Below, piece after piece: positions 11,231 to 49,316 of a DNA stretch of 64,000 bases. The notes below the pieces were generated by a model. It did not search any database. It was not told the DNA's origin and saw nothing but the letters and a program-made list of their open reading frames with translations. The number at the start of each line of letters is the position of its first letter. The first letter of the stretch is position 1. A program made the position numbers and the translations under genes. Source of the DNA: Labyrinthula sp. Ha (taxonomy: Eukaryota > Sar > Bigyra > Labyrinthulida > Labyrinthulaceae); the NCBI GenBank assembly GCA_015227615.1, contig JAALGZ010000057.1:62001-126000 (forward strand), in the 5' to 3' direction.

Positions 11231-11289
11231 GAAACTAAAAGGTCACAGAAAATACAAAATCATATATATTTAAAAACTGATACTGATGA

Positions 11290-11971: not shown

Positions 11972-11975
<4 letters not shown>

Positions 11976-12014
<39 letters not shown>
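11976..12014. repeat. (TA)n microsatellite, copy A only
   Basis: About 19 TA units. The matching place in copy B (about 32850) has only a short run, so the array expanded after duplication, or contracted in B. Confidence 0.9.
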
Positions 12015-12017
<3 letters not shown>

Positions 12018-26464: not shown

Positions 26465-27339
26465 GATAAACGCAATAACTCTAATCCTTGAGTTTCGTTC
26501 ATAGGCTTTTATAGTCAAACATCACGGTACTTCACTTCCAAATACTAATTCCCATAATTTTCAGGGAGAAAAGCATACAATTTGAATTTCTTGTCGCATT
26601 AAAAATATCGATAGTTAACTGTAGATTTCTAACAACTCTCCTTACCGTTAATATCACAAGGCACCATATAGGACTTAACGTTTAGCGACATATCCGTAAA
26701 AATGCCGAAGTTTTCGGTAAGCATAATAAGTAAAGGTACGTACTGTTTTTTTGGGGAAATTCAACAAAAACCAAAATTTCTCTTCCTGCTAAAGGTCAAA
26801 ACCAAACAAGTAAAAAAAATCCTTATATGAACATAAAAGGTGATACCGATAGAAATAGAATTGACTTTCATGAGTGAACAAAGAATAATTTGTTCGCTGA
26901 ATGTTTAAAACTAGTTGTCTTCTACTTGATGGAGATTTTACGTGGCTGAGCTGTCTAAGATACGTTTTGTTTGTTAGCAGAAGCACTTAAGTTAGGCCAA
27001 AGAAAAGAAAACTTGTCATGTGCAATAAAGTGGTATTAGAGTAATGGTTATTAAACATAATTTTAGATTTTTCCATGTTAAACTTTCTATACGGAGTACA
27101 ATTATTATTAGTTTTCACTTGAGAACAAGTAAGAAATATGAAAAAAATAATTTTCAATGGCTAAAAAAGGAAAAAAATGGGCTAAAAGAATAAAAATTCT
27201 TAAGAACCCGAGATTAAACGATTTTTGTATTGTCATAAACTCCCTCACGTTCATTCTCGTCATAAAAGTTTGATCCGTCATATTTTCCTTGCCGCGAAAT
27301 TCAAATCGACCGGGAAGAATACTTCTCCCAATATGAGGC

Positions 27340-28075
27340 TGATTTTTTGAATAGCTAAGAGTTTTCTAGCGACGCTTTCAAGAGTTGGAAATATCGGTTC
27401 TATATTCTTCACTCTGCAAGAATGTCGGTATTTCCTGCAAAGGCGCCAAGATCCAAATAGCGCAATAACTCTCCACGGTTTGGCTTAAAATTAATAGCTC
27501 CTATTAAGCTATTTGTACCTTTAAACAGTAAGCTAATCTCCAATTTCCTTTTCTTCAATACATTAGTCACTATAGTATCATCTTCTAAACGACTGAAACT
27601 ATCCATTTCTAGCGCCACTTTTTCAATAACATAATTCAACTCATCACTCTCTTGGCAATTGCAAATTTCTCACCACTAGTCAAAGAGGGAAGATATCTTG
27701 AAAATTCATGCCTATTCAATTACTGACCAGGATTTGGAAAGGATATTTTCTACCACGTTGACAACTTCAGTGTTTACTTTGAGCATGAAGTCCGAATATT
27801 GTTGCCCATGCTCATCCATGCCTTCAGATTTCGCAATTTCTCGACAAAATATTACAGAATATTCTCTATATTTTAATTATTTTCCCTCCTGTTATTTATC
27901 ATCAACACTCAACCAGATATAGGTAAACAAATCTTCGAAGAACATAGTTTTGTCAGCCATGGCAAGTCATCAAGCATTGATACGATCAGTCTATATCGAA
28001 CAAAGACATTGTTTTCAATGTAACTGCTTTATAGTCTTCAGCAAAACGTTGGTAGATGTATTTAATGTCAAATGT
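27340..28075 (-). pseudogene. Unrecognised gene relic, copy B
   Basis: Counterpart of 6480-7215. The 76-codon stretch 27639-27409 differs from copy A at only two residues (R to S, A to P). The same breaks are present, so it is a shared fossil of an unidentified gene. Confidence 0.4.
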
Positions 28076-31000: not shown

Positions 31001-32080
31001 TCAATGATCTGTAGTTTCAGTAATATGATTAACCCTCATGAACATATTATTTGGTGTACATTATCTATCTCGGGCAATGTAAAGCAGGAGGGTGATGTGA
31101 ATGTTTGAAGGCCACTAGAAGCCTGGAAAGATAGAAAGAGTTAAAGTGGCACGAACCAGAATGAGCAAAGGGGAGTCTTCTCGGGAGGTGAATCTATATC
31201 GCGGCTCTTTATTTACACTGGACAAAAAACAAATCATTACCAAACTTAAAACTCACCTACATCAATGACTAAATACTCAATATTAAAGAACTTTCGTCTC
31301 ATTGAGGATATTCTAACAGAGACTATATACTTAAAGCAATATCAATGTTTGTGTAGTTTAACTTGACTAAAACTAAACAGAACATATGGCTAGATATTAC
31401 GGGTTTTATGTCTTGATAAGATTGAACTACTCTTCGTGGATAGAAAAGCAAAAGCTTCAATTCATAGAATACAAACCTTAATATATGGTGTTTAATTTTT
31501 TTCCTTTCTTTTTCTTCTATTGCTTGACGGATATACCAAAAGCAAAACTATTCTCAGGCAGGTATCCAAGATTCTGTAAGACTTAACCCTGTCGTTATAC
31601 CATTTATAGTTCCAAAGTGAAATATTCAATTTTAGAATTATTCCAGTAGAAAAGCCGAGACAATATAAAGTTCTTGATAGATTTACCGACCGTAATAAAT
31701 AATTTATCCAATAAAATAATAAACTGAATACAAAGATATCCAAATAAGAATTCTTTTTTTTTCATTTATCATAAGACTCTTAATATTATTAAACATAACT
31801 AAACTCATTTTTCAAGACACTTTAAATATTATTCTAAGATGAAATATTTCAATCTTAATAATCAAATAAAATATAGCCTTACAAAATAAGAACAAAGTTT
31901 TATAAACTGTTTCTAATTCATGAATTCAAGTTGCAAAATATCAAAATTCATTAATATTCTTACACTTTCAGATGAAGATATTATTATTCTAGTAGGCTTA
32001 AAAACATAGCATAAATTCTTTTAGTTAAGACCCTATAATAAAGCAAAATTAAAGATTGTTCTTAGATTCTTAGCTATTTT
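28076..32080. other. Non-coding core of duplication copy B
   Basis: Counterpart of 7216-11230; AT-rich, no gene supported. Confidence 0.6.
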
Positions 32081-32149
32081 CACGCTATTATTTTTCAAAT
32101 TGAAGCTAGACGGTCACAGAAAATACGAACTCATTAATATTTTAAAACT

Positions 32150-32431
32150 GGTGCTGATGAACTTTAAATTTTGAAGCTGAAAGACTTATGTCTGCTGTAT
32201 GTAAAATTTAGAGGTAATAAATATTTTAAAACACAAATTTTGTCTCATGGAGAAGAAAATTATTTAACTTTTCTGTTGAGTAGAGGCAAAAATAAAACTA
32301 AAGTTATTCATTTTTATTATATTGGTGATTCAGTTCGAGTTAAAGATTTTATTTATTCTATTGGACGCTTCTGCAAGGAAAAGAATGTAAAACACATAAA
32401 GAAAACTATTAAGCATATATCTTTATCTTAA
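32150..32431 (+). pseudogene. Unrecognised gene relic, copy B
   Basis: Open for 86 codons (LKDLCLLYVKFRGNKYF ... IGRFCKEKNVKHIKKTI). Copy A has breaks in the same stretch. The better preservation here and protein-like codons suggest a real ancestral gene, but no domain is recognisable. Downstream to about 33400 the relic dissolves into AT-rich DNA. Confidence 0.35.
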
Positions 32432-34084
32432 TGAAGCAACTTTGAAACACAGAAAAATCACAGTACATTTTGAAAATATAGAAAAAAAATCTATAAAATT
32501 GTTTTATGTTTCTTTAGTTAATATATAAATGGGCAGAATCCTGAGCACTTAAGAATAAACACATATCGTCAAGAAGTATAACTGAAACGGAAATCATGGT
32601 TAGAATATTTTGGCTTAGTTGAATTAAGATAAATTCCAGTGAAAGAAGCACAAAAACTTATGCAGATAATTATAGCAAGAACATTCTGTGATTAAATAGG
32701 GTATTGGATCAGTTAACTCCAATTAAGCTTTTGCAGAAGTTTAATTAACTTATGAACAAAGATATTCTAAAAATTTAGAAACCAACTCTTAAGAAATATA
32801 TTAGTAATTCCAAGCAAAAATAAATGGATTCAGAAGAACAAAACAAGGTATATAAATTCTTTATCAAATAAATAGAAAAGGTTCTTTTTACAAATTAACA
32901 AAAAGCGTTTTGTATTTCTATTGGATTGATATAAAAAAGCACATATCCAATTCTTGCTAGTAATTTTTATCCAGTGGATAATAATTAATATACAGTGATT
33001 AGGAATTATAAACCAGTTTCTTCAAAGGACTCTTAATGACTATTGTGATATGTTTCCAAATAAAATTGAACGTCTTGATAATATTCTTCGATAGCAGCTA
33101 AGAAAAATATCTATGATTGCTGTGTTCTAAGGGCCAGTTGGTCGAATAAATTGTCTTGGACTTTTCTTTTTGGTTGGTTATTCTATGAATGACTTAAGAC
33201 TTAGTAATGCACCATTATACTATGTAACGGTGCTTAACGTTAATAAGTGTTTTGCACTTATATCACACTATTTTATTTTGTATTTGAAAAGCAGTAATAA
33301 TAATCATAATATGTATTCAAAGATAATTATAGAATATCAACAAAAATAAGAAAGTTGAGATTTATCTTGGAGGTGGAGCAGTATAGAATAAAAATATGGT
33401 CAATAAAAACAAACAATATTTTTTTCTGAGAGTCATAAAAAGAAGAAACACAAAGTGTTTATTTTGAAGTTTGCAGCAACTGTTTGTATTTATTAAAGTT
33501 TATTGGGTTTATTTCAGATTTATATGGTGACAAATGGATCAGAATAATCCAAGACAGATTTTTTTTTAACTATATGTTTAATAAAGATAAAGTTAAAAAA
33601 GATAGTAGATCATACAATATATTTTGTTTGGAATTGCTTCTTTAACATAAAGTAATACTTTGCCTTGTCATAAACAAAACACTTAAATATTGAATAAATT
33701 TGAACATGAATACTTAGTTTTTGTTCATTGAATCAGATTTTCTATCAAGCTTTTAAATCACATTATCTTCAGGAAATATATGTTTTTTGTGTAAATATAC
33801 CAACAGATTATTTAGGAAAGATTTTTTGCTATGAATAACTTGAATAGTTTTCTTACTTTCATTGGTACTATGAGTTAAACCAAGAACATATTTGTTTTAC
33901 AATAGATATAGTTGAACTATTCTTTTTTATTCTCTGAATAAAATAAACTTTCCGGAATAAAGTTATATAATTTCAGCGCTTTCTTTATTTAAAAATATGG
34001 AAAACATAAGTTAAAATTAATAAGCAACATTTTTCCCAATACAAAACTAGATAGGCCTTCAAAAGATTTTTTTTGCAATAAGAA
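32432..34084. other. Diverged arm of copy B
   Basis: Homologous to 11560-12507 plus 16913-17401 with several indels. It contains the empty copia target site at about 33605-33625 and some sequence (about 33030-33260) not seen in copy A. No gene recognised. Confidence 0.55.
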
Positions 34085-36732
34085 CTAATGAAACTTATTA
34101 AATAAACTTTCAAAGAAGTTATTTCTCTTTTTAGTAGGTTTAAGAATAACTTCTCTGTTTGTATCAAGAATTTCGAAATCCTCGACAGTTCTGTTTCTAA
34201 ACTTTGGTATTATAATTTCAAGTAAGTTATTCAAATATTCTTTATGATTACTTTGAACTAAAGTGAAAGCTATAGATTTATCACTTGATATAAAAATATC
34301 AAAAACATATTCTGTTCCAAAAATCATACGTGCAAAACCTTTATACACAAAACTTTGAGTAATTCCTTCTTGTGATTTAAACAAGTTTACAAGAATAACA
34401 AAAGTAGATAAAAGAAGAAACCTTCCAAAAATAAGTTCTGAAAGAAGGTTTTATTTTTGATTTATTTAGTTCAGGAAGTAATTCAGGAAGAATAAAAACA
34501 TCATTTTCTATTTCTACAGGTATCAAAACCAAATTTTTCAAAGCCAAACTTAAAATATATTTCTTTTCTTTATCAGAATATTCTTTTAATAAAATATTAA
34601 AAAGTTCTTTATTTAATTTTCCTTTGTCAACATAAATTCTATATAAAGAAAATTTATTACTTGGAATCCGAAAAGCAAGTTCATGAAAATTTGGATCTCT
34701 TATAAACTTACCTAAAGCTTGAGCAAGATAAGAAGGTGCAAAAAATATAAAGTTTTCATCTGCTTCCAAATCTAAATCAGGAAAATAACAAATTAAACCA
34801 GCTTTTCAATATATTTCAAGCATATCTTGAACTTCCGAAACTTCAAAACCACAAGAATAAGATTTATCTTCAAATTCCTTCAAAGTCATAATATTTGTTT
34901 GTTCTCGACAATTATCAAGGAAAATAATTTTTGCAGTTTCTATTCTAAAGTTAAGAAAATTTTCTTTATTTATTCCAGCTGCTCCAGAAACAAGACTTTT
35001 TATTTTATCTTTTATATCCTTTTTCTCTTGAGAATCTAATTTTGCATTCTCAATAGGAAAAAATATATTCATATCATTTTTCAATATATTTAACTCAGAA
35101 GAAAGACTTTTAACAAAGTTTTGAAGTTCTTTTTGTATTCTTTCTAGATTTGTATCTTTAATATTTTTTCTGTTATATCTTCTTAAATATGTACCAATAA
35201 AAATAACTGGTGCTTTTTCTGTATTTTTTAAAATACTTTCACACCAAAATTTTAACCTAAATAAATCATTTTGAGATATTTTTGTCATATTAAAAACTAG
35301 AAAATAAAGAGAATTTGAATTCATAAAAATATGATGAATAGAAGAAAATATTTCTTGTCCACCAAAATCATAAATACGAAAATAAACATCTTCTGAATTA
35401 AATACTGCGGAAGCATCTTTAAATCCAGTTACAAAACTTTCATCCAAAACAGTTTTAGAAACAAGTTCTTCTTCAAAATCAAGTTTGTATTTAGATTTTG
35501 GAATATCTTCTAAATTAAACTCTTCAAAAGAAGTATATGGAATGTAGTCCTTAATTCGCTGTATACTCAACTCATATTTTGATATTGGGTTCCAGTCGTA
35601 ACTATTTGGATTTATACTAAAAACATCAATATCATTTAATAAAAGAGTTGACTCAAAATTTAAAATAAATTTCCTATTGAACAAACTTCTTATTGTAGAA
35701 GTTTTTCCTGTTCTTCCATCTCCAATAAAAAACACAGAAACTTCGTTTAGAATAGTTGGATATTCATACTTATCTCTTAGCTGTGCTTGAACATTTTTTC
35801 AATTTATTTTGAAGTTTTTTTAAATCAAAAACAAATCCTGATACTTCATATACAATTAGATTAAAGTGTGAATTAATTAAACCTTGTACATCTCTTTCTT
35901 CATCTTTGGAAAACTTCATTGGTTTAATACGTAAGCTAATAATAAAAATAGAAATATGAATACATAAAATTCAATAAAAAATGCTGAGTTCTTAATAATC
36001 TTTTTACAAGGGAAAGTATTTTTTTGGAGTTCATAGAAATACTTTTTTCTTGTACGCTAGAAAACTAAGGCAAATATAAGAAAAATACTATAAGGTTCTC
36101 AAAATATTCCTTTTTGAAATAAATTCTAAAATATTGGATAAAATTTTTGTTTCTAAATTATTATTTTCCAATCTATTATTAGTTAGTAGAAAAAAAAAGT
36201 ACCTTAAAGAATGAATATTTTGTTCTCTTAGAAAGTTTGTAAAGCTTTTCCCTTTTGGAAGAACACAACCAATATATCTAAAGTAAAGAAATAAAAAAAT
36301 GTACGAAGTATAACTTATATTCCACTTATTCTTCAAAGGCAATACATCTGAAAAATTTTCCTTACTAAAACTGCAATAGAAGAATCTAAATTTAATAATA
36401 TAGGAAATATACATTAGCTGATTTACTTTTGGGAATTTTTTTCTAAAGAAATATAAAGCTTTTCTTACTGCATAAAAAGGGCAATAAACAAATCTGAAAA
36501 TTTATATTTAATCAAAGTTCTTACTTAAGTATTGTTATTTCTTCTGCTGTCTCAAATTGTTCGTGAAAAGCTTTAACTTCTAGTTCAAACCGATCTTCCT
36601 CTGCAATATTATGTTCCTCATCATAAGACCTAAACTTTATATGAATAATAACCGATACCATTGAAGGGTAAACATATAATTAAGTTCTCTGGTTGAGAAC
36701 TGTTGTTTTATTAATGGGGCTCTAAAAGACAT
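34085..36732 (-). pseudogene. LRR-Roc-COR GTPase pseudogene, copy B
   Basis: Start ATG 36732 (MSFRAPLIKQQF), with the same short introns and LRR exons as copies A and C (for example a 5' splice site GTAAGA after the first LRR segment). The Roc domain is present at 35735-35300 (GDGRTGKTS, DFGGQ). It is broken at least three times: a frame change near 35795, a TCA-to-TGA stop near 34804 (after LEIY), and an 11-nt deletion near 34435. From about 35387 down to the 3' end it is almost identical to copy A, whereas the 5' half (LRRs and start of Roc) is much more diverged. That abrupt change is the mark of gene conversion or unequal exchange. Residual function of an N-terminal fragment cannot be excluded. 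Confidence 0.82.
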
Positions 36733-37126: not shown

Positions 37127-37211
37127 ATGGGAAAATATATTATTTTAGGGTTTTTTGGTAAGTTAATAAACACTTTTTGGTTCTTGGCTTTCATTGCAGC
37201 TTTATTTCGTG
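37127..37211 (+). other. Possible short spliced exon pair cut by the Ty3/gypsy insertion
   Basis: ATG at 37127 opens MGKYIILGFF. GTAAGT at 37158 and CAG at 37199 bound a 42-nt candidate intron, and the frame continues ALFRELWSMK across the pre-insertion junction into 47039-47070. Good splice sites, but only about 26 codons, so this may be chance. Confidence 0.25.
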
Positions 37212-37501
37212 TGGATCAAAATCTAGGTATTAATCTTCTAGGTTTTGTGTCTAGCGCTATAAGGGTTATGTTCTTAATCTTAAAGTTCAAGCCGAATGTA
37301 TAGCTATTATCTTCTGGTGCTGTCAAGAGTCTCTAGATATCCCCTTGTTCGTATTCGTTATTCCTTTTTATTATTCTGTTGGTTTTTTCGATTAATTCTT
37401 ACTTTGGCCAATCCTGGCACTTATTTTATCCAATAATATGCTATATATCTAACCAATCATATTAATATATATAAATGAAATACAAACCTCATAACAATAC
37501 A
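37212..37501 (-). repeat. 3' LTR of Ty3/gypsy element
   Basis: TG...CA ends. On the minus strand it is preceded by a purine tract (GGGAAGAGGGGGA, 37502-37515) suited to plus-strand priming. AT-rich, unlike the internal region. Confidence 0.92.
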
Positions 37502-37992
37502 TCCCCCTCTTCCCATAAATGCGTGACTCCACTTTGTCTGAGCACTAACTGTATTTCATAACTTCTTCCAAATCTACTCGGGTTGACCTGTTCCCCCAAC
37601 TGGAGCCAACCTTTTCGCAACCCGCTCAAATGCGCAAAAACCTCCATGAGTACCGCGCCTTCTCCAAATGCGCGCCTAATCCATTCCAGTACTACCGGCG
37701 GCTTTATTCCTTCACGAATTCTATCAGCAAAGATCATTCTTCGTTCCTGGATAGCCGCCTTATCTATATCTCCTAGCGCCTCGCGTTCTTTGAAAAAGTA
37801 CAATACTTCGTGGGATCGCTGGAATAGCCGTCCAAGCGATCCTCTTATTTTTCCCCGTGGAGTCATCTTTATCCATGTCCAGGTATGGAATACTTCATAC
37901 CCCATGTTTTCCATAAATTGAAGGACGCGCCCTAAGTTCCTGGCGCGGTATTCATACCGCCACAAATCGCGGCCGTAGGTTTGCGATTCCAA
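37489..37992 (-). CDS. Ty3/gypsy element: MT-A70-like adenine methyltransferase frame (fossil part)
   Basis: 167 codons. MENMGYEVFHTWTWIKMT matches the W/M-G-[YF]-x-x-x-x-x-x-W-[VI]-K block of the METTL3/METTL14/METTL4 family. LGRLFQRSHEVLYFFKER fits the following G-x-x-x-R-x-x-x-H/S-H-E-x-x-L block. KPPVVLEWIRRAFGEGAVLMEVFA and GWLQLGEQVNP fit the conserved KP-x-x-x-x-x-I-x-x-x-x-P-x-x-x-x-L-E-x-F-A and G-W-x-x-x-G-N-x-x C-terminus. MT-A70 enzymes methylate N6 of adenine in RNA or DNA. Activity is not asserted here. The frame ends at the edge of the 3' LTR, so it is part of the element, not a neighbour gene. Host genes in this window are far more AT-rich, again tying it to the element. Confidence 0.8.
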   Translation of the reverse strand: MESQTYGRDLWRYEYRARNLGRVLQFMENMGYEVFHTWTWIKMTPRGKIRGSLGRLFQRSHEVLYFFKEREALGDIDKAAIQERRMIFADRIREGIKPPVVLEWIRRAFGEGAVLMEVFAHLSGLRKGWLQLGEQVNPSRFGRSYEIQLVLRQSGVTHLWEEGDVLL

Positions 37993-39040
37993 AGTCCCTG
38001 AATTCCTCGTCGCTTGCTGACTTTGGTACTTCTCGGTGTCCGCTTCTCGACAGGTCAGCCAATAGCAAGTCTACCGTAGCTAAACCTTGCGCTTCGTGGC
38101 GCCACTCAAGGCTGTGGGGGTTTATATTATACCACATCTTTTCTGGTGGCAGTATGCAGCACCTCATTGCTATTCCATCTTTTTCGAAATCTATATCAAA
38201 TATACGCCCTGTCCTTTGAATCATAGTGAACTGTACTTCTCCATCAAAAGACACCAGGTAGCGCCATTTTGCGCTCTGCTCAATTTCTTGCGCGTAATTT
38301 GTCAGAGACACAGGCGTCTGCGCATGTTCCGCGTGGCGTTCATACCTTACTCGGAACCCACCGACTCCCCATTCTGATACCTTCTCTTCTTCAAATGCCA
38401 ACACCATAGTCCTTATTAACTCAGGGTATTGTTTAAATTTCTCACATATCCGCGCCGCCTTTCTTACGTAGTCCGCCGCCTTCTTTCTATGTCTCCGTAA
38501 ATCCTCCGCGTATTCTGGCATAAATTCTTTTGCCACTTCCTCATTAGCGAGCGCCAATGCTTGCTCACAATCCGCAAAGCGCCTAGTACATCGAAAATCG
38601 GCGCGGCTAATCCGTTCGCTAGATTTCCGCGCCTTTTCGATGTCCCAATATTCTCCTCCTATTTCTTCAAGATCCAGCCGACCCAGTCGTTGCTGGATAT
38701 AATACTGTGTCATCGCTTTGGTTTTGTGTGGCAAGTACAATTGATATTTATCGTACCTACCTACCCCAAACTTCAAGACCAACTTCCTTAATTCCTGCTT
38801 TTCCTCTTTTGTCCAACCCTTCGCCGACGCGACTTGTCTGCGCTCGGTAAATGGTTGCTCCTTGACTTTGTCTAAATGCCTCCGCCAGGCGCCAAGTCCA
38901 GGAACACGTCTTATTACTCTGTCCGTTGCGTGGTCCGTAGTAACCAGCGCCTGCTTGGCTCTTTTGCGCATTTTATTTTGACTTAGCCTACGCGTCTCTT
39001 TACCCAAGTGTTCAAGTAATGCATTTGCGAACATCCTCAT
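37952..39040 (-). CDS. Ty3/gypsy element: frame with SANT/Myb-like domain (fossil part)
   Basis: 362 codons overlapping its neighbours at both ends. Residues about 72-122 (KGWTKEEKQELRKLVLKFG ... LPHKTKAMTQYYIQQRLGR) fit a SANT/Myb DNA-binding fold: W-T-x-E-E, then L-x-x-L-x-x-x-F-G, then L-P-x-K-T and Q-x-x-x-Q-x-R-L. Helical, basic sequence surrounds it. The last 60 residues (ATVDLLLADL, then SASDEEFRDFGIANL) look like the beginning of an MT-A70-type fold, the rest of which lies in the next frame. A DNA-binding targeting role is inferred. Myb-type DNA-binding subunits are known partners of ciliate MT-A70 adenine methyltransferases. Confidence 0.65.
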   Translation of the reverse strand: MRMFANALLEHLGKETRRLSQNKMRKRAKQALVTTDHATDRVIRRVPGLGAWRRHLDKVKEQPFTERRQVASAKGWTKEEKQELRKLVLKFGVGRYDKYQLYLPHKTKAMTQYYIQQRLGRLDLEEIGGEYWDIEKARKSSERISRADFRCTRRFADCEQALALANEEVAKEFMPEYAEDLRRHRKKAADYVRKAARICEKFKQYPELIRTMVLAFEEEKVSEWGVGGFRVRYERHAEHAQTPVSLTNYAQEIEQSAKWRYLVSFDGEVQFTMIQRTGRIFDIDFEKDGIAMRCCILPPEKMWYNINPHSLEWRHEAQGLATVDLLLADLSRSGHREVPKSASDEEFRDFGIANLRPRFVAV

Positions 39041-39455
39041 ACATAACTTGAACAGGTTCCCAAGTATTATCCTCAGAACGGAAATCTCTCCATCTTACCT
39101 CTATTACATATTCCGCTAAGTGTGGGTCATACTTGACATCCCCAAACTTTGCGACTTCAAGATGCTTAAAGTTTTCAACGTAAATTTTTCTGAGCGCCTC
39201 CGACGGGACAAAGCCGCTTGGTTCATAGAAGTATAGGCGGCTTCCATGAACTTCTGTTGCCTTGCCATCTAGCGCCTTAATTTTATATACATTCTTCGAT
39301 ATTGTTTCCACTATTTGCACCGGGCCCGACCACTCAAGCGCCAATTTATCGCGCTCCCTGAGGGTTCCCTTAGAGGACAGCAGACACCAGTCTCCTACGT
39401 TATATTGAAGAAGCGCTGGGTCTACTGCGGCCTTCTTCCTCCTATTGTTCAACAC
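39012..39455 (-). CDS. Ty3/gypsy element: chromodomain part (fossil)
   Basis: Begins with the integrase C-terminal GPY-like module (LEWSGPVQIVETISKNVYKI, followed by the H-x-x-R-L-x-x-Y block). It ends with a chromodomain, YVIEVRWRDFRSEDNTWEP, including the aromatic residues that bind methylated histone tails. In chromoviruses this domain steers integration to particular chromatin. Confidence 0.88.
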   Translation of the reverse strand: MLNNRRKKAAVDPALLQYNVGDWCLLSSKGTLRERDKLALEWSGPVQIVETISKNVYKIKALDGKATEVHGSRLYFYEPSGFVPSEALRKIYVENFKHLEVAKFGDVKYDPHLAEYVIEVRWRDFRSEDNTWEPVQVMYEDVRKCIT

Positions 39456-39458
39456 TTT

Positions 39459-41621
39459 CTAAAATTCTACATACTTCGCAACCTTCCCCTCGTAGTCGTC
39501 CAAGCGCTTCCTAAAAGCGGAACTTAATTTGTATAGCACATCGTCATCAATACCGACCAACATTCTGGCGCCGCCTCGGATTCTTTCCACTATTGGCGGA
39601 AGTCCCGCTGGTTCAATATACTGGCGCTCTGGATTCACATATAAGAACAGTTCGTACACCGTCGGCGCATTTTTTCGACCAGGTATCTTTCGTGAAGGCA
39701 CCGGCAATTCGTTCATTGCGCCTTGTATCTTATTTAATATCTTTGGCCACTCATCTTCATTGAGCCTGTATTCACTGACCAGACTCTTTAGAAAATTCAG
39801 TACCTTCTTATTCACTACTTCCACTTCTCCGTTCGTCCAGCTCGCGTAAGATACTGCGAAGCTTTGCGAAAATCGAAGTTCCTTCCTTAGCGCCGTCATT
39901 AAAGAATTCGCGAAATGAGTTCCGCGATCTGTAACAAGCGTAAAGTCCTTTTCCAACTTATAATTCGCCGCAAATCTCTCAAGCGCTTCTATAACCGCCT
40001 GCGTATCCGGCGTTTTCGTATGCGTTAGCTGCGTAAATCTGCTGAAGACATCCGTCAATACTAGGATATGCCCCATTCGGTTTACGCATAAAAAGTCTGC
40101 TACCAGAGTTTCCCGCGGGCGCCTAGCTCTTGTAACTAGGCTATATGTTGTTTTTATTGCTCTAGGGAGTCTGCGACAATGTATACAGTTGTCCCTAAAC
40201 GCTCGTATCAATTCCACCATCTTTTTCCATGGGGTGTCTCCCCTCAGTGTGCGCTCCATAGCGGCGGGAATTCTCCACTCAAATATAGCCGCTTCCGCTA
40301 TGTTAGCTTCGAGAGAGCCATGCTTGTTCGCTAGATGCATGCGAACAAGTTGGCGCTCCAAAAGCGAAGCCGTTAAGATGATTTTTCCCGACAACTTCTT
40401 AATCCTAGAGGTTCTAGTAATCATCTCCTTTTTCTGCGCCTCGATAACTTCCGCTTCTGTTAGCGGCGCCCAATCACCTTCAAAATATGGGTTAAATACG
40501 GACACCCTATATTTATCCAGTGTCTTTAGCGACGCATAAATCTTCTTTTCCATCTGCTTCTTAGGCCTAAAGTGGTTGACCCTTACCGTTACATTTCTTA
40601 TTTTTGCCGTCATGTTATCCTCTTCTTCCGTCGTTGAATAAGTATCCGTCTCGATGTAATGCGCCACTCTCGTGTCGCTAACATCCGATGGAACTTCACT
40701 CGGCCACGTCGCGAAATCTTCCGTCAACTTTTCCCATTCTTCTTTTGAGTATTCCTTCTGAATCTGGCGCTCTACTTCTCTCATCAGATCTGTCCTATCC
40801 CTTGGCGGCGCCGGCTTTCTGAGGATTCTTCTAATTATACGTTTCTGCTGCGCCAAAGATGGCTGCACGAAGTATCTTGCGCCTATATCCCTTTCTAGTC
40901 CTTGCACCCATTGCGCCTTTTTAGGCTGCAAGAGGTCAGGCGTCCATCCTTCGAAATCCCTCTTAATTCTGAAGTACAGGTCCTCTTCGCCTAGGAGTGA
41001 GCCGTCCCTTGCCGTGTATATTGACAGGGCGTCGACCACCGCCTCCTTGAGCCATTTCCTTATTTTGGCTTCAGTTTCCTCCTGGAGCATCTTGGAAATC
41101 TTCCTTAGACGCTTTTCTGCACGCGCCAGAACAGGTACTTCCGTTTCTGCGTTCTGCGCATGCATTTTCACTATGCGAACGGCCGCCACGCTACTTACTT
41201 CCGTTGGCGCCGCCCATCTCGTAAGCATGTCCGCGAATATATTACTATCTCCGTCAACGTGGTGAATGTCCACCAGCACATGTTGAAGAATTACCATCCA
41301 GCGTTGCAGGCGGTTAAGATGTCCATGGTTGATCTTCGACCCACCTTGTAATATCGCCTTCAGGTTGAGGTGATCTGTGTATACTTGCACCGCCGTTGGA
41401 TGGAACGGCAACAAGTATGAGAGTTTATTAAATGTTCGGATTATAGGGTATAGTTCCTTATGACATATACCCCATACCAACTGACTTGCATCAAATTTTC
41501 CGCTAAAAAATATCATTAGATAAACTATCTTTTTTAGAAAATTCTTTCCGCGCTCTTCTTGGCGCGCTTGGAATAGGATGGCGCTGTGGTATTTATCTGA
41601 CGCATCGGTCACCAAAATCAA
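39459..41621 (-). CDS. Ty3/gypsy element: RNase H and integrase part (fossil)
   Basis: The RNase H-like start (ILVTDASDKYHSAILFQ, then VYTDHLNLKAIL) matches gypsy RNase H. The integrase has the H-x-x-x-H...C-x-x-C zinc region (HLANKHG ... CIHCRRL), then the core with Asp in VADFLCVNRMGH, Asp in LVTDRGTHFANS and Glu in NGEVEVVNKKVL. Between RNase H and integrase lies an unusually long linker of about 250 residues with no recognised fold. Confidence 0.9.
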   Translation of the reverse strand: MILVTDASDKYHSAILFQARQEERGKNFLKKIVYLMIFFSGKFDASQLVWGICHKELYPIIRTFNKLSYLLPFHPTAVQVYTDHLNLKAILQGGSKINHGHLNRLQRWMVILQHVLVDIHHVDGDSNIFADMLTRWAAPTEVSSVAAVRIVKMHAQNAETEVPVLARAEKRLRKISKMLQEETEAKIRKWLKEAVVDALSIYTARDGSLLGEEDLYFRIKRDFEGWTPDLLQPKKAQWVQGLERDIGARYFVQPSLAQQKRIIRRILRKPAPPRDRTDLMREVERQIQKEYSKEEWEKLTEDFATWPSEVPSDVSDTRVAHYIETDTYSTTEEEDNMTAKIRNVTVRVNHFRPKKQMEKKIYASLKTLDKYRVSVFNPYFEGDWAPLTEAEVIEAQKKEMITRTSRIKKLSGKIILTASLLERQLVRMHLANKHGSLEANIAEAAIFEWRIPAAMERTLRGDTPWKKMVELIRAFRDNCIHCRRLPRAIKTTYSLVTRARRPRETLVADFLCVNRMGHILVLTDVFSRFTQLTHTKTPDTQAVIEALERFAANYKLEKDFTLVTDRGTHFANSLMTALRKELRFSQSFAVSYASWTNGEVEVVNKKVLNFLKSLVSEYRLNEDEWPKILNKIQGAMNELPVPSRKIPGRKNAPTVYELFLYVNPERQYIEPAGLPPIVERIRGGARMLVGIDDDVLYKLSSAFRKRLDDYEGKVAKYVEF

Positions 41622-41701
41622 GTCTATGTTCCGATAGTAATGTTGTAATCGCGCCTTTGCGGCATTCGCTAACCTCTGCTTGAAGCGCTTAAATGCCGCC
41701 T

Positions 41702-43249
41702 CTAACTCTTCATTCCACAGAATGCGTTTTTCTCTTTTAGAAGCTTTTTCTTCTTTCCCTTCATCTCAGGGTAGAACAACATAATTTTATCTCGAAGTTC
41801 CGCCATTTCGGGAACCGCCGATGTCAACCATTGTGCTAAGTGCAAGAGTTTCGCTAGCTCATATACATACTCAGGCTTTGGGACAAGTAAAATTTTTTCA
41901 TAATATTTCTTCGAAAAATTCCATCCGCCATTCTGCAGAACCCTTCCGCAATACTCAATACTTGTTGCGAATAATATTGATTTTGTCGGGCTTATTCTGA
42001 CCTTCCACTTCCGCAAATTGCGCAAAACATCCTCCAATATTTTGATGTAGCGCCTAAAATCCTTCGCATGTATTAACGTATCGTCAATCCATTGCACGAT
42101 TCCGTTGCCCTCCTTATTGTAATTTCCTGCCGCGATATGATCCACCATGCGCTGGTGAAAGAATACCGGCGTCGAATGATATCCCATCGGCGCAAACTGC
42201 AGTTGAAATACACCATAGGTAGTCATAAGATTGAAGTACTTCTTAGCGCGGTCGGTAATCGCCAACTGATCGAATCCGCTCACTACGTCTAAACACCCGT
42301 AGAAACGCGCCGGCGCTGTGTTGCCTAGCTGCGTCTCTAGTATGGGAAGTATATTCGCATCTCTGTGCAGTACCTTATTTACCGCAACCAAGTCCAACAT
42401 CATGCGCCAAGTATTATTCTTCTTAGGGACTGCAAAGACAACTGACCCATAAATCGCTTGTCGGATCTTCTTTGCCATGCCCTTCTCAACCATTCCGTTT
42501 AACTTTTCCTTCATAAACTCCGCCTTTCCAGGCCCAAGCGGCCGTGGCGCCGGCATTTTGAATTCTGCGCCTTCTATTGGCACCACATCCATAGGCGGTA
42601 AAAGGCTAATTCCTATTTGTGACGCGCTTGTCGCGAAAACATCTTCATACTTGAGGCATAAATTCATGAGCTGGTTGCGCTGGTCTTCGTTAGCGTCGCC
42701 AGCAGCTCCCACCATCTTTGTTATTGCTTCGCGTATTTCCGCCTTTTCCGCCTCCGGCCAGTAGAGCGCATTCCCTTCGGGAAGCATTAACTGCTCCAGA
42801 TTATCTTCATCCACAACGTCCTTATTCTGCTTCAAGTGTATGGTTTCACCAAACGGAATCCCTTCCGCATTTCCATCGCGCAGGCGTCTACTAAAGTCGA
42901 TTGACGCCGCCCTGATGGCCGTGATATCCTTAAGTACCTCCATTTTTCCTCCCCCTAGCTGCCTTATCATTGCCGCTAGGCGCAGTCTAGGTAATCTCAA
43001 ACCCGTGAGAAACTGCACGTCGTTTGATTTCTGGCGCCGCAGTTTCCTTAGGTCCAGGTTCCTCGTAAAAACAAAGTATGAATTTATAACTAAGTCTCCG
43101 TCGGCGCCTTCGTCTAACACCCTCACCGTTTCAGCTAAAGTATATCCATATTTCGCGAAGTTAGAAATTGAAGTAAGTATTAATCTTAATTCCACTTCGA
43201 CTACGACGATATCATATACTCTAAAAAGCTGTTCAAGTTCCCTCGACAT
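41702..43249 (-). CDS. Ty3/gypsy element: reverse transcriptase part (fossil)
   Basis: VFAVPKKNNTWRMMLDLVAVN (RT block 2), FYGCLDVVSGFDQLAI (catalytic Asp block), FQLQFAPMGYHSTPVFF and QWIDDTLIHAKD (Y-x-D-D equivalent) are in order. They are followed by HFAxNxR-like thumb sequence IEYCGRVLQNGGW. The N-terminal 170 residues hold no recognised domain. Confidence 0.92.
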   Translation of the reverse strand: MSRELEQLFRVYDIVVVEVELRLILTSISNFAKYGYTLAETVRVLDEGADGDLVINSYFVFTRNLDLRKLRRQKSNDVQFLTGLRLPRLRLAAMIRQLGGGKMEVLKDITAIRAASIDFSRRLRDGNAEGIPFGETIHLKQNKDVVDEDNLEQLMLPEGNALYWPEAEKAEIREAITKMVGAAGDANEDQRNQLMNLCLKYEDVFATSASQIGISLLPPMDVVPIEGAEFKMPAPRPLGPGKAEFMKEKLNGMVEKGMAKKIRQAIYGSVVFAVPKKNNTWRMMLDLVAVNKVLHRDANILPILETQLGNTAPARFYGCLDVVSGFDQLAITDRAKKYFNLMTTYGVFQLQFAPMGYHSTPVFFHQRMVDHIAAGNYNKEGNGIVQWIDDTLIHAKDFRRYIKILEDVLRNLRKWKVRISPTKSILFATSIEYCGRVLQNGGWNFSKKYYEKILLVPKPEYVYELAKLLHLAQWLTSAVPEMAELRDKIMLFYPEMKGKKKKLLKEKNAFCGMKS

Positions 43250-43339
43250 CAGCGCATCTACAACCTTGGCGCTATCAGCAAAACAACTTGAACAAACCTT
43301 CAGGCACGCGGGACCGCTTTCCGCTCCGCTGCCGACTTC

Positions 43340-43765
43340 CTAGGCGTTCTGGTGCGGCATCAGTCCCGCCTCCTCTAGCGCGGGCGCACCTACAAGTATT
43401 TCCTTCCACTTCTCATCATCCACCAGGAATACTTTAACTCTGCGAAAATCGCGCTTCCAGATTCCGCCTACGCGCATCTCAAGATCGGCGTAACCTACTT
43501 CAGTCACGCGGAGATCCGTCGTGCCATCGGCTAAAGTAATCTTCTCCTTAACGTCCTTTATGGAGTCCATCATCCATGCATGCCTATACAACGAAGCTAC
43601 GCTCTCATCCGCGCCACTGTCAAGGATCGCGTTTGGAATGCGATCGCCTGACGCAGTGTGATGGATGGTAACTCCATTTCTTGCTGTTCTTCTTACCGAC
43701 ACATTCAGGCGCCTCGTAAATCCGCGTTCCTTCTTTCTCTTGCGGTCGTCTCCCGGCGCCGGCAA
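43340..43765 (-). CDS. Ty3/gypsy element: aspartic protease part (fossil)
   Basis: AILDSGADESVASLYRH is the retropepsin D-S-G-A active-site block, followed by ITLADGTTDLRVTEVGYADL and ILVGAPALEEAGL, matching the flap and the I-L-G-x-x-x-L block. It is preceded by Arg/Ser-rich basic sequence (43770-44020) that may serve nucleic-acid binding. Confidence 0.88.
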   Translation of the reverse strand: MPAPGDDRKRKKERGFTRRLNVSVRRTARNGVTIHHTASGDRIPNAILDSGADESVASLYRHAWMMDSIKDVKEKITLADGTTDLRVTEVGYADLEMRVGGIWKRDFRRVKVFLVDDEKWKEILVGAPALEEAGLMPHQNA

Positions 43766-44026
43766 TGCTAAAAAGGACCTGCGACCTTCGTGTTCGGCCC
43801 CTTCATTCCTTCTAAATGATCTGTTCTCAAATGGGGAGCGTCTGTTGTATCCTCGCGCCCTGTTGTGTCCGCGGTTCGCCTGTCTTCCTCTATATGGGCT
43901 ACGTGACCGCGATTTTCGCCTCGGGTACTTCCTACTTCTTTTAACCGATTCCTCCGAAGAAGTTGAATACCTTCTATTTTTCTTCTTTCTTTCTCCTTTT
44001 GACTTTGGCGCAGCTCTCCTTACATC

Positions 44027-46717
44027 TCAAGTCCTCGGTACATCATCCGCCACACTTGGCGGCGCAATCATGACTTCGCCTTCCATATTAAGCCTGGCGT
44101 CATAGATGGCTTGGATAAGCTTCTTACATTCCTGAAGCGAATCCGCCAACTTAGATCCTGGCGCCTCCAGCTTTGCCTTAATACGGTCATCTTTTAGCCT
44201 CAGCTGGAGTGGGAGGCGCTTGTTTAGCGTCCTCAAGATCTCGAACCTCTGGCTATTTTCCGTGAGCTGGTTCCATTTAATACACCCAGTCGCGCCGTTC
44301 ATATAGTTATTAAGGCGCTCTAAGAATGCGCCTTCGCTGAGCCAGATAACCTTCTCTACGATTGTGCGGAGGGTGTCTTCTCCCTCGTAAGCTTCATGCT
44401 CCCTCATATACTTCTTGAGGTAGGCTACCAGGTTATCCTTTGTTACCCCGCCGCGCGAAAGGCTTTGCTTCAATTCCGGGTCTACGTGAATCCAGAGGTT
44501 TGGCTCTCTCTCATTCTCGTAGACCTCCAGGTATGCCTCGCGCATATCCAGCATCGCCCTGATGTCCTTGACCTTTAGTGAAGTGAGGGTCTTAAACTTT
44601 CCGCCCGTATTTTTCCATTGGCGGTCGCGCCTGGCGCTCTCATCACGGCGCGCTTTAAGTTCCTCGAACCTGTGTGACTCTTCCGAGCCGCGCGCGTTCC
44701 TTTCTAAACTTCGGACGCTTGCTTCCGTCAACTTTTCCAATAGCGTTGCCATACTATTAAGTTTTGTTTTTAAAGTATGGACGCTACCTTGCGTCGGCGC
44801 CGCAACAGACCCTTCTTCAGTGAACTCAGCGATCGTTCCTTGCTGCGTCAACTGCGACCCAGGGTTGGAACAGCGGCGCTGCGCCTTTTCGATGGCGCTG
44901 TCTCTATCGAAGACTTCCTGCTGTAGGCCTTGGTTCTTCAATTTCTCTGCCTGATACAGGCCCTTTAAATTCTTTATTTCATCTAGGAGCCTCTTCATTT
45001 CCTCACTGTGTTGCTTCCTAGCCTCCTGAACTGCTATTTTCATTAACTTAGTGTTTTTGTCGCGCAGTACGTTTTCTGCTGCATGCGCCTGCGCCCGCAA
45101 TCTCTCATTCTTATCGGTTAGACTGTCGATTCGGGACTGAAGGGTCTTTTCCTTATCGGTGAGCATATGTTCTGATCTCCTAACCTTCCGCTTTGGCGCT
45201 ATCAGCGATTTTTCTATATGAGGGTCGGCTTTAACTAACCACCGGAAAAGCTTCACGCGCCTCGGCCTAGTCGGGTCATCCCTTATGGCGACGTTAGGTC
45301 TTGGCATGTTTCCGTTGATCACCGCCAGCCCTCTATCCGCCATGTACTGGATATTGGGCGCAATAACAACACCGCTTGAATGAAAATACCATGTTGGCAT
45401 ATTTGTCGCAAGTAGCCTAATAGGCGCCTTTTTCCTCATACTGACTACCTGACCGAACGAAACTTCCTTACTCTCGCGGAAGTTTGGGACGGCCGCCAAC
45501 ATGTGCGCGGCTCTTTCCGTCAGCGGAACATCATCAGCTTCCGCTTCCGCCAGCGCTATCATCAGTATGAGGGGAAAGTTCGAGGACTTGTGAATACCCT
45601 TTTTCTCAATTAAGTTAACCGCCCTCTTCCCGTCCATCTTCTTTTGCGCCTCGCGCAAATCGTCTTCGCATACAACATATTTCTTTGGCGTGAAGTATCG
45701 CGGAACCTTCGTATAGAATTCACAGTCCCTTTTCGCCACATTTTTCTTGCGCTTCTTCTTTTGCGCCTTTTTGCCGCCACTCACCGGCGCGTCGCCCGTT
45801 AGATCTATTTCGCCCCCCCCTTTGCTCGAAGGTGTCCTTTCCTTAGGGGACGCAGCGGATGGCGCCGTTTTCTTCGCGGGCGCCTTTCCTTTTGGCGTGG
45901 AAGGGGGAAAGGTGAATTCTTGCGCCGCTTCCGTTATTTCCGACCTTTTTGGGGAAGGCGCGAACTTTTTCAGTAGCGGTCCCTTTTTCGCCGCTCCACT
46001 ATGAGGCGCAGATTCGCTAATCGGAGTAGATACGAGGTTTACCCCTATAGGTCTGATGGACTCAACCCAAGTCGTAGCTCCGCCGCCGCTCACCGAAGGC
46101 GCGCTCGCTACTTCTTCATCTTCACGCGCAACTACGCTCGCCAGACCGGCCGAGCTCTTGTCATCATCTGCGCCACTGTCTTCGGCGCCACTTCCTTCAT
46201 GTAGTAACGGCTCTTCGGTGGATATGTGCGGCTCTCCGGCGCCTCCTCGTCGATCAGGGCTACCCGTACCCGTCACTACCAAGTTGAGGTGGAGCGCCTC
46301 ATCAGCCGCGCGTTTCTCTCCCGCCGGAGTTACTACGTCTTCCTCTTCATCGCTGGCGGGAGCTTCTTCCGCCTCGGCGCTAGCGGCATCCTCAGCGCCT
46401 AATTCTTCCGCCTGAGCGGGCGCTTCCTCATCCGCCGCGCCTTGCGCCTCTTCGTCTCGATCGGCGCTCCCGTCTCGATCGGCTATTTCCCGATCGCTCT
46501 CGTCTTGACCGATCTCCTCTTGAACATTCTCGTCTTGATTGATCTCGTCTCGATTGGTCTTGTCTTGACCTTCTTCCTCCGAGGAAGAGGAACCAAAATA
46601 TTCTGCCTCTTCCCTCTTTTTCAGGCTCTCTTCTTCCTCTCTTTTTCTCCTATCTTCTTCTTTCTTTCTTTTCATCTCGTCTCTCCTCTGGATCTTTTTT
46701 TCTCTTGATATCGGCAT
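44027..46717 (-). CDS. Ty3/gypsy element: gag-like part (fossil)
   Basis: 896 codons from ATG 46717, 32 bp inside the 5' LTR. The N-terminal 220 residues are extremely acidic low-complexity sequence (EEEGQDKTNRDEINQDE and similar). A Pro/Ser/Lys-rich stretch and a basic KKAQKKKRKKNVAKR cluster (possible nuclear localisation signal, about residue 310-325) follow. A coiled coil lies at about 520-610, and a helical capsid-like region at about 700-880. It is much longer than usual gypsy gags (300-500 residues), and no zinc knuckle was seen. Confidence 0.75.
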   Translation of the reverse strand: MPISREKKIQRRDEMKRKKEEDRRKREEEESLKKREEAEYFGSSSSEEEGQDKTNRDEINQDENVQEEIGQDESDREIADRDGSADRDEEAQGAADEEAPAQAEELGAEDAASAEAEEAPASDEEEDVVTPAGEKRAADEALHLNLVVTGTGSPDRRGGAGEPHISTEEPLLHEGSGAEDSGADDDKSSAGLASVVAREDEEVASAPSVSGGGATTWVESIRPIGVNLVSTPISESAPHSGAAKKGPLLKKFAPSPKRSEITEAAQEFTFPPSTPKGKAPAKKTAPSAASPKERTPSSKGGGEIDLTGDAPVSGGKKAQKKKRKKNVAKRDCEFYTKVPRYFTPKKYVVCEDDLREAQKKMDGKRAVNLIEKKGIHKSSNFPLILMIALAEAEADDVPLTERAAHMLAAVPNFRESKEVSFGQVVSMRKKAPIRLLATNMPTWYFHSSGVVIAPNIQYMADRGLAVINGNMPRPNVAIRDDPTRPRRVKLFRWLVKADPHIEKSLIAPKRKVRRSEHMLTDKEKTLQSRIDSLTDKNERLRAQAHAAENVLRDKNTKLMKIAVQEARKQHSEEMKRLLDEIKNLKGLYQAEKLKNQGLQQEVFDRDSAIEKAQRRCSNPGSQLTQQGTIAEFTEEGSVAAPTQGSVHTLKTKLNSMATLLEKLTEASVRSLERNARGSEESHRFEELKARRDESARRDRQWKNTGGKFKTLTSLKVKDIRAMLDMREAYLEVYENEREPNLWIHVDPELKQSLSRGGVTKDNLVAYLKKYMREHEAYEGEDTLRTIVEKVIWLSEGAFLERLNNYMNGATGCIKWNQLTENSQRFEILRTLNKRLPLQLRLKDDRIKAKLEAPGSKLADSLQECKKLIQAIYDARLNMEGEVMIAPPSVADDVPRT

Positions 46718-46748
46718 CCCTCCTACGACTTTACCTTTGAATATTCAA

Positions 46749-47038
46749 TGGATCAAAATCTAGGTATTAATCTTCTAGGTTTTGTGTCTAGCGCTATAAG
46801 GGTTATGTTCTTAATCTTAAAGTTCAAGCCGAATGTATAGCTATTATCTTCTGGTGCTGTCAAGAGTCTCTAGATATCCCCTTGTTCGTATTCGTTATTC
46901 CTTTTTATTATTCTGTTGGTTTTTTCGATTAATTCTTACTTTGGCCAATCCTGGCACTTATTTTATCCAATAATATGCCATATATCTAACCAATCATATT
47001 AATATATATAAATGAAATACAAACCTCATAACAATACA
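46749..47038 (-). repeat. 5' LTR of Ty3/gypsy element
   Basis: 290 bp, about one difference from the 3' LTR. The sequence just inside (minus strand TTGAATATTCAA) is itself self-complementary, unlike a standard tRNA-complementary primer site. Confidence 0.92.
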
Positions 47039-49316
47039 CGTGAGCTTTGGAGTATGAAATGTTACACTTTAAAAAAATAATCAAAAGCTATAACAGTGAA
47101 ACTGCTATCAATACTATCTATGTTCAATTTATTCTAATTGCATATTGCGAAAGTAAAAGGAAACGCGACGAGAAATCCTCGATAAACATCAGGGTTTAAC
47201 GTTTACCAACATATTTATATAGTTTTATATTCTATTCTTGGCATATTGTGTTGATATCAGCTGTATGTAAACAAAATTTAAAAGTTTAGTATTTTTTTAA
47301 ACTTATTTCATGTAACTTATTGTAAATGAAAGAATAATTATCTTTCTCCAAGCTTCGATAAATTCTATGGTAGGATGTATATTATTATAGATGAGCAAAT
47401 AAATATGACATGGATTGCTCAAGATGATGATCTGTTTCTGTGTTAACCAAAACGTGGTTAATGATAAGTAATGGAATTTGTTGTTGGATTTTTCTATATT
47501 TCAAGTACCTCAATTTCAGGAACGGTTTTCTTTGATCCAGATATATGAAAGCAAGATAATGTCATAGTGTAATTTGTCGGTATTAATGGTGACGTGCTAT
47601 GATGTATTATTTTAGTATACAAAATTCCCAGCCAATTAAGCTTCAGTGAGAATTCAAGAAGTGGTTTGGGAATGTTGCTCTAAGTTTTCCGGTGATTGAG
47701 TGAATATTGTACTCATGGGGTAGCAAATTCTTCTTGTATATTCTCTGATGCGGTAGTGTTACTTTCTAAAACCGACATATCTTTTTTTTGTATTTGAACT
47801 TTCTTCTTTGGGTATACCTATATTACAATATTTTCTTGAAGTAATTTATATTTGTGCATATAAGAAACAAACATATTTTATATCAGCAATAAATCAAACT
47901 AGTTTTCTGAAAGTGAGTAGTTGAACAAGAAATCAAGTAAATTATAAGAAGTTTTATAAAATTAAGATAAAACTAGAGCTTCAAAAAGTTTGAGTTGTTT
48001 AGGTAGCTTTAAATTCTAAATTCACTTTCTCTGTGTTTGAACCTAGAAGAAACCGTATGTGGACTACAAATGGAGCATCTTTTAATAAAGTACCTCTTTT
48101 CAGTATCCATTCTTATTAAACTTTAACAACTTCTTTCCTACACATTAAGTTTGAATATATTTTATTTCTTATTCTTTTTGGAAGATGGGTTTTTGTTTTT
48201 GCTAATCTATGATTTAACACACATATGGAGAACAAAGTTCGAAGTTTGAACTTGTATTAATAAAAAGTTTACAGTTATCATACTGAATATCATTCTAAGA
48301 AATTTCATTCATTATTATAAAAAAATAGAATTATAGTTTTTTGTTTTAATTCTTAACTTTTTTATATTGGTTGTATAATTATAAATCTGCGAATTCTGAT
48401 TTCAACTGATGTATTAAGAAAACCTGTGTTTCAAGATGGTAAAACATTTTGCAAAGTAAGAGTTTAAACTTACCTAAATGAAAGAAAAAGATAATATTTA
48501 AACTAATAAGAAAAAATAAAAAAATTTATGGAATTTATGTAGAAGAACTTTTCTTAAAGACATGAGTGGGTTTAATGAAACTTAAGAGGGTAATAAAATA
48601 AAAGTTATAGGTTATTCAATGCTGTGTGATGAAAAAAAACAATAAATATATAATAAAATTCCTTCTCTAATTGAATATACCAATGAAACCTGAAGAACTT
48701 TTTAAAGTAATTTTACAATATGAGCTTAATGACACCCTACAGCTGAAAAGCTTATTTTAAATGAAAACTGGTTTTTTATTTTCTTATATAGACTCAGAAT
48801 TTCTTTTAAAACGCACTGCAATAGTTCAACCAAATGTAGGATTATCAAATTGTTCACATAATATAAACTAAAATGTAGTTGATCTCCTCGAGTCTTAAGA
48901 AATAAGATACCTTCCACTAAAAGTAGGTTTAAGTCTTACCTTCCTTAATTCCTCTTAAGATGGCTTTTTATTGTACTGCAGGATTTGATAACATTTCTCT
49001 TTTTCTAAATATTCACAGTCAGAGACTTTTACTCAGCTTATGAAAAAAATAAAAATCAATTATTAAGTAATAATGACAAGTTTTTATGAAAAAAATTGGT
49101 ATTCAACACAATTCTTTGCTATCTATCCCCTTATAAATAAATAAAGAAGCTATTTAATTAAAATATGTATCTCCACAAACATCGCAAAGTGGAGAAAATC
49201 TTCCTATCAACCAATAAATAGGTATTGTATATATTATTGCAGCTTTAAACTCCAAATCGTGCAATAAAAGCTAATCTCAGTCCCTTATCTACCTATCATA
49301 CCTATTCAGTACAAAT
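47039..49316. other. AT-rich intergenic region
   Basis: About 2.3 kb. Apart from the possible continuation of the small spliced frame at 47039-47070, no gene, repeat family or RNA gene was recognised. The largest frame (minus, 48917-48726) has low-complexity composition. Confidence 0.55.

Follow-up and report, generated by a model that had tools for sequence, protein, structure and literature searches.

A chromodomain-bearing lineage of Ty3/Gypsy long terminal repeat (LTR) retrotransposons in Labyrinthula sp. Ha carries a DNA-methyltransferase-like module: a Myb-type block resembling the protein p1 is fused to an AMT1/MTA1-like MT-A70 domain, C-terminal to the integrase and the chromodomain. 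p1 and MTA1 (AMT1) are known as subunits, with MTA9 and p2, of the ciliate complex MTA1c (PMC9174199). The fusion is present in dozens of lineages, with 46 representatives sharing less than 80% identity. The analysis started from one element in a window of 64,000 nucleotides (contig JAALGZ010000057.1, positions 62,001 to 126,000), where it occupies positions 37212-47038 of the minus strand, counted between and including the LTRs. It was then extended to the genome of 50.84 Mb in 153 contigs.

Organization of the element

The two LTRs of the element differ by a single mismatch, and the duplication CGTG is found on both sides. The element is thus a young, recently inserted retrotransposon. Its pol domains follow the order reverse transcriptase (RT; PF00078), RNase H (PF17917) and integrase (PF00665) (Table 1). 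A preliminary description of this DNA reported two frames downstream of a chromodomain, one with a SANT/Myb-like block and the other with MT-A70 blocks. Both frames, of 362 and 167 aa, are present on the minus strand where they were reported, and all four peptides quoted from them occur in the translations. The MT-A70 assignment is borne out by profile comparison, in which the 167-aa frame scores 38.9 bits against a curated cut-off of 23.9. The Myb-like block and the chromodomain do match their families, PF00249 and PF00385, but both matches lie below the Pfam cut-offs in this copy; the chromodomain exceeds its cut-off in two relatives (L011 and L013). The frames were also said to end at the edge of the 3' LTR. 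The stop codon of the 167-aa frame (37489-37491) lies instead inside the LTR, past the polypurine tract. The final codons of the module, WEEGD, run across this tract, and a comparable C-terminal ending, LWE(E/K)G, is found in many copies of the module.

Together the two frames encode a single MT-A70 domain, with the first strand, VDLLLADLSR, at the end of the 362-aa frame and the remainder in the 167-aa frame. The domain occupies a single frame in relatives L004, L005, L009 and L011-L014, and in L002 and L003 the frame is broken at a different place, which points to decay and not to a programmed shift.

Relatives of the module in the genome

The 362-aa frame has 107 matches in the genome, many of them partial or stop-bearing, and 20 were fetched for close reading. 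Nineteen of these cover residues 5-361 or more of the 362 (the other, L010, covers 5-277), and stops or breaks of the open frame occur inside or soon past the match in eight. We distinguish a window family (L002-L008, 74-94% identity to the 362-aa frame) from a sister family (L009 and L011-L020, 53-58%). A single open frame, 985-1010 aa long and truncated by the edge of the locus, joins the integrase core, the chromodomain and the MT-A70 domain in three sister copies (L011, L013 and L016). Of these, L016 has a chromodomain below the cut-off. The Myb block gives E=0.0086 for L011 and E=0.022 for L013; for L016 it is not among the families listed.

A genome search with the MT-A70 profile gave at least 150 matches (the best 150 of 354 candidates), all above the family cut-off, the best with E=4.9e-37. 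The lists of RT, RNase H and integrase domains likewise hold the best 150 matches each. At least 89 of the best 150 MT-A70 matches are preceded, on their own strand and at no more than 6 kb, by RNase H or integrase, compared with four in the downstream control and one in the opposite-strand control. RT within 6.5 kb upstream adds nine, so that at least 98 have one of the three pol domains upstream. The association was also counted from the side of pol, using the MT-A70 matches and 52 of the 107 matches to the 362-aa frame. One or the other lies within 6.5 kb downstream of at least 110 of the best 150 Gypsy RNase H matches and at least 79 of the best 150 integrase matches. For the remaining 40 and 71, respectively, no module is found downstream among the matches listed, and Gypsy copies that do not carry it may therefore exist. 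The best RT matches in the genome are located away from module-bearing copies; other retroelement classes probably share the genome.

In every one of ten additional elements, of which two belong to the sister family and one runs into a contig end, the flanks contain a direct-repeat pair (243-700 bp, 94.1-100% identity). By eye, duplications of four bases can be made out at five of the ten (C83, C62, C1, C88 and C57). The preliminary description had recognized that the profiles might find nothing, or that the region might be host DNA captured once. Profile matches were found, and the copy counts rule out a one-off capture. The broader suspicion of a single capture, or of chance or faulty assembly, could draw on the broken frame of the window copy taken alone, but it is vanishingly improbable given the near-complete length of 19 of the 20 fetched matches, the pol domains upstream of so many MT-A70 matches, the LTR pairs at all ten elements tested and ratios of nonsynonymous to synonymous substitution (dN/dS) well below 1.

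No relative was found in the viral contigs searched. Public protein searches gave six and two matches, all EukProt models and apparently from the same organism, under a length limit that would miss long polyproteins elsewhere. In the EukProt models P0001 and P0004, predicted introns seem to excise the broken or stop-bearing stretch at the catalytic motif; with an annotation edit distance of 1.00, both look like annotation artefacts. Other lineages have a protease-like domain between p1 and MT-A70, seen as DSGS in P0008 and as matches to PF13975 below the cut-off in L021 (positions 1-2016, E 0.0076) and L036 (1468-3489, E 0.01). In the window family the protease-like frame precedes RT, and the protease thus seems to have two positions. 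A predicted fold of P0008 alone had a mean local confidence (pLDDT) of 33 and was not used.

Kinship with p1 and AMT1/MTA1

Judging from sequence comparison, the Myb-type block of the better-preserved lineages is a homologue of the p1 subunit in ciliate MTA1c. A 674-aa piece of L041 matches p1 (E=1.5e-16, residues 113-252) and Tetrahymena MTA1 (TthMTA1; E=1e-30, residues 483-663). The match to p1 extends past the Myb block, and a post-Myb segment common to the elements and the host p1 is visible in the alignment. The resemblance to p1 is weaker in the window family: the single sequence P0003 gives E=0.14, and profile-profile comparison gives a probability score of 97.3 (E=1.7e-11) over columns that include the chromodomain side. 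A genome search with the p1 region was read for the best 150 of 330 candidates: 97 have an MT-A70 match within 3 kb downstream (controls: one upstream, none antisense), nine fall within matches of the window family, and the remaining 44 show neither association. Separate loci of the host encode an AMT1 (L028/P0009, E=3.7e-73 to TthMTA1) and a p1 (a frame in L127, E=6.3e-34) of its own.

By score, the MT-A70 domain is closer to AMT1/MTA1 than to METTL3 or METTL14 in most of the comparisons. L044 scores 9e-39 against MTA1 and 4e-20 against METTL3; L090 scores 1.3e-32 against MTA1 and 2e-10, 6e-6 and 4e-4 against METTL3, METTL14 and METTL4; the window-family profile scores 3.2e-12 against MTA1 and 0.0086 against METTL3. 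These scores and the tree do not favour an origin from METTL3/14; L041, however, ties, with METTL3 at 3e-30. Model comparison fails to separate MTA1 from METTL3. METTL3 belongs to the MT-A70 enzymes and the element has an RNA stage, so that the module could act like METTL3 and write N6-methyladenosine on the element's own transcript, a role to which the tie in L041 would be congenial. We regard such a role as improbable. L044 and L090 are clearly AMT1-like, the fusion partner is the p1 of a DNA enzyme, and MTA1c is described as inactive or weakly active on RNA and single-stranded DNA (PMC9174199).

Phylogeny of the element modules

Two trees were computed, with the mis-cut reference row AMT1_Rhizopus left out of both. 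In the first, of 58 rows (the 46 element representatives and 12 references), METTL4 forms a very long branch and falls among the elements. The second was reduced to 55 rows by leaving out METTL4, METTL14 and L097. It places 45 elements on one side of a branch and nine cellular AMT1s with METTL3 on the other, with support of 95/93 in this reduced set. A pol domain lies upstream of 24 of the 40 tree representatives drawn from the PF05063 list, as counted with the best 150 matches for each pol domain.

In the best 55-row tree the host AMT1 sits with the cellular AMT1s, and the elements have their own branch beside AMT1. This disagrees with an origin from the host's own AMT1, yet a clade of elements and host AMT1 is not rejected by the approximately unbiased test (p-AU 0.148). 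A grouping of the host AMT1 with Blastocystis and two thraustochytrids, supported by 96/87 in the 58-row tree, is not starred in the 55-row tree and is taken as a hint. The nearest outgroup of the window and sister families is L110 (99/99, 58-row tree). As a whole the tree fits one origin of the element modules, probably followed by a long radiation.

Catalytic residues

The activity of TthMTA1 is reported to be abolished by alanine at D182, D209 or N360 (PMC9174199). The counterparts of these and other residues were scored in 90 element-type rows, which comprise 80 of 89 element-type domain pieces (nine were dropped for stops, and L028 was set aside as the host gene) and, from the 20 window-type loci, 10 that were chosen for an in-frame domain. 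A pol domain lies upstream of 59 of the 80 pieces, again with the best 150 matches per pol domain; the remaining 21 count as elements by their kinship alone. Among the residues scored, D209 is retained in 87 rows, K334 in 89, F355 in 90, R357 in 80 and N360 in 71. D182 is kept in 61 (with N in 18) and N370 in just 18. At D209-W212 the motif is DPPW in 51 of the 90 rows, DPAW in 12 and DPPY in 12. D209, P210 and N360 are all kept in 63.

The window family departs from this pattern. In the window copy DLSR replaces DPPW, and the counterpart of N360 is lost, being G by eye. The family as a whole shows the variants DLSR, DLSG, DLTG, DLAG, DPSV and DPPG. The sister family has DPPW in 8 of 11 copies and HPPW, NPTW or DSPW in the others. 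G occurs at N360 in L004, L005 and L007 and in the scored sister rows. The outgroup L110 keeps DPPW, R357 and N360, which suggests a stepwise loss of catalytic residues. The window copy is most likely a pseudoenzyme, to judge from its residues. The preliminary description considered a non-catalytic role equally possible, whereas DLSR, the loss of N360 and the change of frame favour that role for this copy and its family. The same reading could be applied to every family, so that the module would be a structural pseudoenzyme throughout, as MTA9 and METTL14 are, merely dimerizing with host AMT1 and recruiting it. The residues of the window family agree with this and host AMT1 is intact, but joint retention of D209, P210 and N360 in 63 rows makes it quite unlikely.

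Purifying selection on the module

Pairwise dN/dS was estimated by the Nei-Gojobori method (NG86) and is given as medians. It is 0.17 in the window family (21 pairs; 0.29 for the C part of MT-A70, three pairs) and 0.15 in the sister family (34 pairs; 0.17 for the C part, 15 pairs). Of 12 further sets, nine have usable pairs, with medians of 0.05-0.15, and three are saturated. The estimates show that the element modules are under purifying selection where it is measurable. For the p1/linker part the values are 0.14 in the window family and 0.13 in the sister family, and over the final 60 codons of the N part, where MT-A70 starts, they are 0.30 in the former (a single pair reaching 1.19) and 0.27 in the latter. 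By this measure the degenerate MT-A70 domain remains constrained, though less than the p1/linker part.

Such a distribution of constraint would also suit a module that serves targeting rather than writing. The p1/MT-A70 part would read or tether, guiding the integrase to host linker DNA rich in N6-methyladenine (6mA) near promoters, with catalysis secondary or absent. The module is located behind integrase and chromodomain, a place where targeting domains sit. The stronger constraint on the p1/Myb part than on the start of MT-A70, and the persistence of purifying selection in a catalytically degenerate family, point the same way. Targeting alone, however, would not require D209, K334, F355 and N360 to be kept at the frequencies given above, and we consider it unlikely as the whole explanation.

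Proposed function

We favour a division of roles, in which catalytic families write 6mA on their own new DNA and insertion site and degenerate families act as partners; the case for it is about evenly balanced. In catalytic families, the integrase-linked module would work on double-stranded DNA, where it would be placed by the pre-integration complex or the chromodomain. Chromodomain and p1 would keep the enzyme bound to DNA where the element inserts, and the module would write 6mA both on this insertion site and on the new DNA of the element. Methylation by the element of its own DNA is inferred from the domains and residues described above. In the preliminary description such marking was suggested as a way to escape host silencing, which is conjectural. 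In eukaryotes that have AMT1, 6mA is reported to accompany transcriptionally permissive chromatin marked by H3K4me3 (PMC12695648). The likely benefit would thus be expression of the new copies, which the mark would favour. Degenerate families, such as that of the window, may provide DNA binding and a dimer partner, in the manner of MTA9 or METTL14, for a catalytic subunit encoded by another element or by the host. For the window family our best guess is that the module either plays this MTA9-like part or simply binds DNA.

The dependence of the Tetrahymena MTA1 enzyme on p2 and MTA9 (PMC9174199) counts against writing by the element module. The Rhizopus complex, as described, consists of Mta1, Mta9 and P1 (PMC13297926). 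A more far-reaching proposal, which is tentative and rather doubtful, is that the Gypsy clade carries a portable single-chain 6mA module (p1-AMT1) that marks its own copies permissively, and that dead families supply or exploit a non-catalytic partner in trans, re-creating the division of labour between MTA1 and MTA9.

Comparison with known systems

Retrotransposons that carry a DNA methyltransferase (DNMT) have been described. KnitGypsy-Dnmt3, SymbioLINE-Dnmt and SymbioDIRS-Dnmt3 are retrotransposons of this kind, one of them a Gypsy element, and the DNMT of KnitGypsy is under purifying selection, as are the modules here (PMC5890265). As presented in that account, the DNMT lies inside pol in KnitGypsy and SymbioDIRS and in an upstream frame in SymbioLINE. 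These enzymes are cytosine DNMTs of an unrelated family, in contrast to the MT-A70 domain with its fused p1-like DNA-binding part. No cytosine-methyltransferase family is among the matches listed for the Pfam-scanned frames of the window element and its relatives. Adenine methyltransferases are known in retroelements as the Dam-like methylases of DIRS elements (PMC5890265; PMC6338049). DIRS elements, as described there, combine the Dam family with a tyrosine recombinase, whereas the elements here have MT-A70, an rve integrase and LTRs; the Pfam scan of the window element lists rve integrase and MT-A70, not tyrosine recombinase and Dam.

Three further systems share single features with the module. 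Ciliate MTA1c has a homologous MTA1 domain and the p1 subunit, but its subunits are described as separate cellular proteins (PMC9174199), whereas here the two parts are fused in the pol of a mobile element. Bdelloid N4CMT also joins a chromodomain to an amino-methyltransferase, but it is presented as a host gene of bacterial origin that makes N4-methylcytosine, and not as part of an element (PMC8885841). The Sola1-1 transposon of Ectocarpus encodes a ParB-methyltransferase protein and so likewise carries an amino-methyltransferase domain. That enzyme is not part of a Gypsy pol and is characterized in its report as prokaryote-like N4/N6 with ParB, not as MT-A70 (PMC12477816). No report of MT-A70 in a retrotransposon is among the literature matches listed, which cover open-licence literature and were judged mostly from titles and the starts of abstracts. 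Retroelements with cytosine- or Dam-type methyltransferases are already in print; those matches include no MT-A70 module paired with a p1-like partner of its own.

Features of the element and its surroundings

Table 1. Features of the retrotransposon, in window coordinates
Feature	Position	Strand	Basis
3' LTR	37212..37501	-	290-bp direct repeat with 46749-47038, 1 mismatch, TG...CA ends
5' LTR	46749..47038	-	partner repeat of 37212-37501
Target-site duplication CGTG, left	37208..37211		sequence
Target-site duplication CGTG, right	47039..47042		sequence
Gag-like frame, 896 aa	44027..46717	-	open reading frame, named by position
Aspartic-protease-like frame	43340..43765	-	LDSGADESVAS motif by eye; no Pfam match
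Reverse transcriptase	41702..43249	-	PF00078 E=4.4e-16
RNase H and integrase core	39459..41621	-	PF17917 E=5.8e-17, PF00665 E=2.4e-9
Integrase C-terminal (SH3-like) part and chromodomain	39012..39455	-	PF24626 E=1.7e-4, PF00385 E=5.9e-4, both below Pfam cut-off
p1-like Myb block, linker and first MT-A70 strand, 362 aa	37952..39040	-	open reading frame, Pfam scan, alignments
Myb/SANT block of the 362-aa frame	38714..38815	-	PF00249 E=0.0019, residues 76-109, below cut-off
DLSR replacing the MT-A70 motif DPPW	38045..38056	-	translation and alignment with relatives
Remainder of MT-A70, read in a different frame (167 aa), with stop codon within 3' LTR	37489..37992	-	PF05063 E=1.1e-9, residues 25-135
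Polypurine tract GGGAAGAGGGGGA adjoining 3' LTR; encodes part of WEEGD	37502..37514	-	sequence

The interior of the element has a G+C content of 0.487 and an observed/expected CpG ratio of 1.21, against 0.295 and 0.62 in the rest of the window. The L041 locus, from a different lineage, has a G+C content of merely 0.309. Outside the element, the window holds direct repeats that pair 5695-12429 with 26551-33534 (spacing about 20.9 kb) and 16940-18055 with 33623-34727 (about 16.7 kb); both are apparently local duplications. A frame with a Roc/Ras-type GTPase domain lies at 34806-35735 on the minus strand (PF08477, E=9.3e-16).

Significance

According to a recent survey, the MT-A70 families have been relatively static since the last eukaryotic common ancestor (PMC12695648). 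In contrast to this picture, one branch has diversified within mobile elements and comprises dozens of lineages. Within the genome of Labyrinthula sp. Ha, the modules form a natural series in which catalytic residues range from intact to lost while selection continues to act. The window copy has lost key catalytic residues but many relatives retain them, so the elements could themselves be writers or readers of a chromatin mark. Whether a transposon writes 6mA on itself and gains from it thereby becomes testable.
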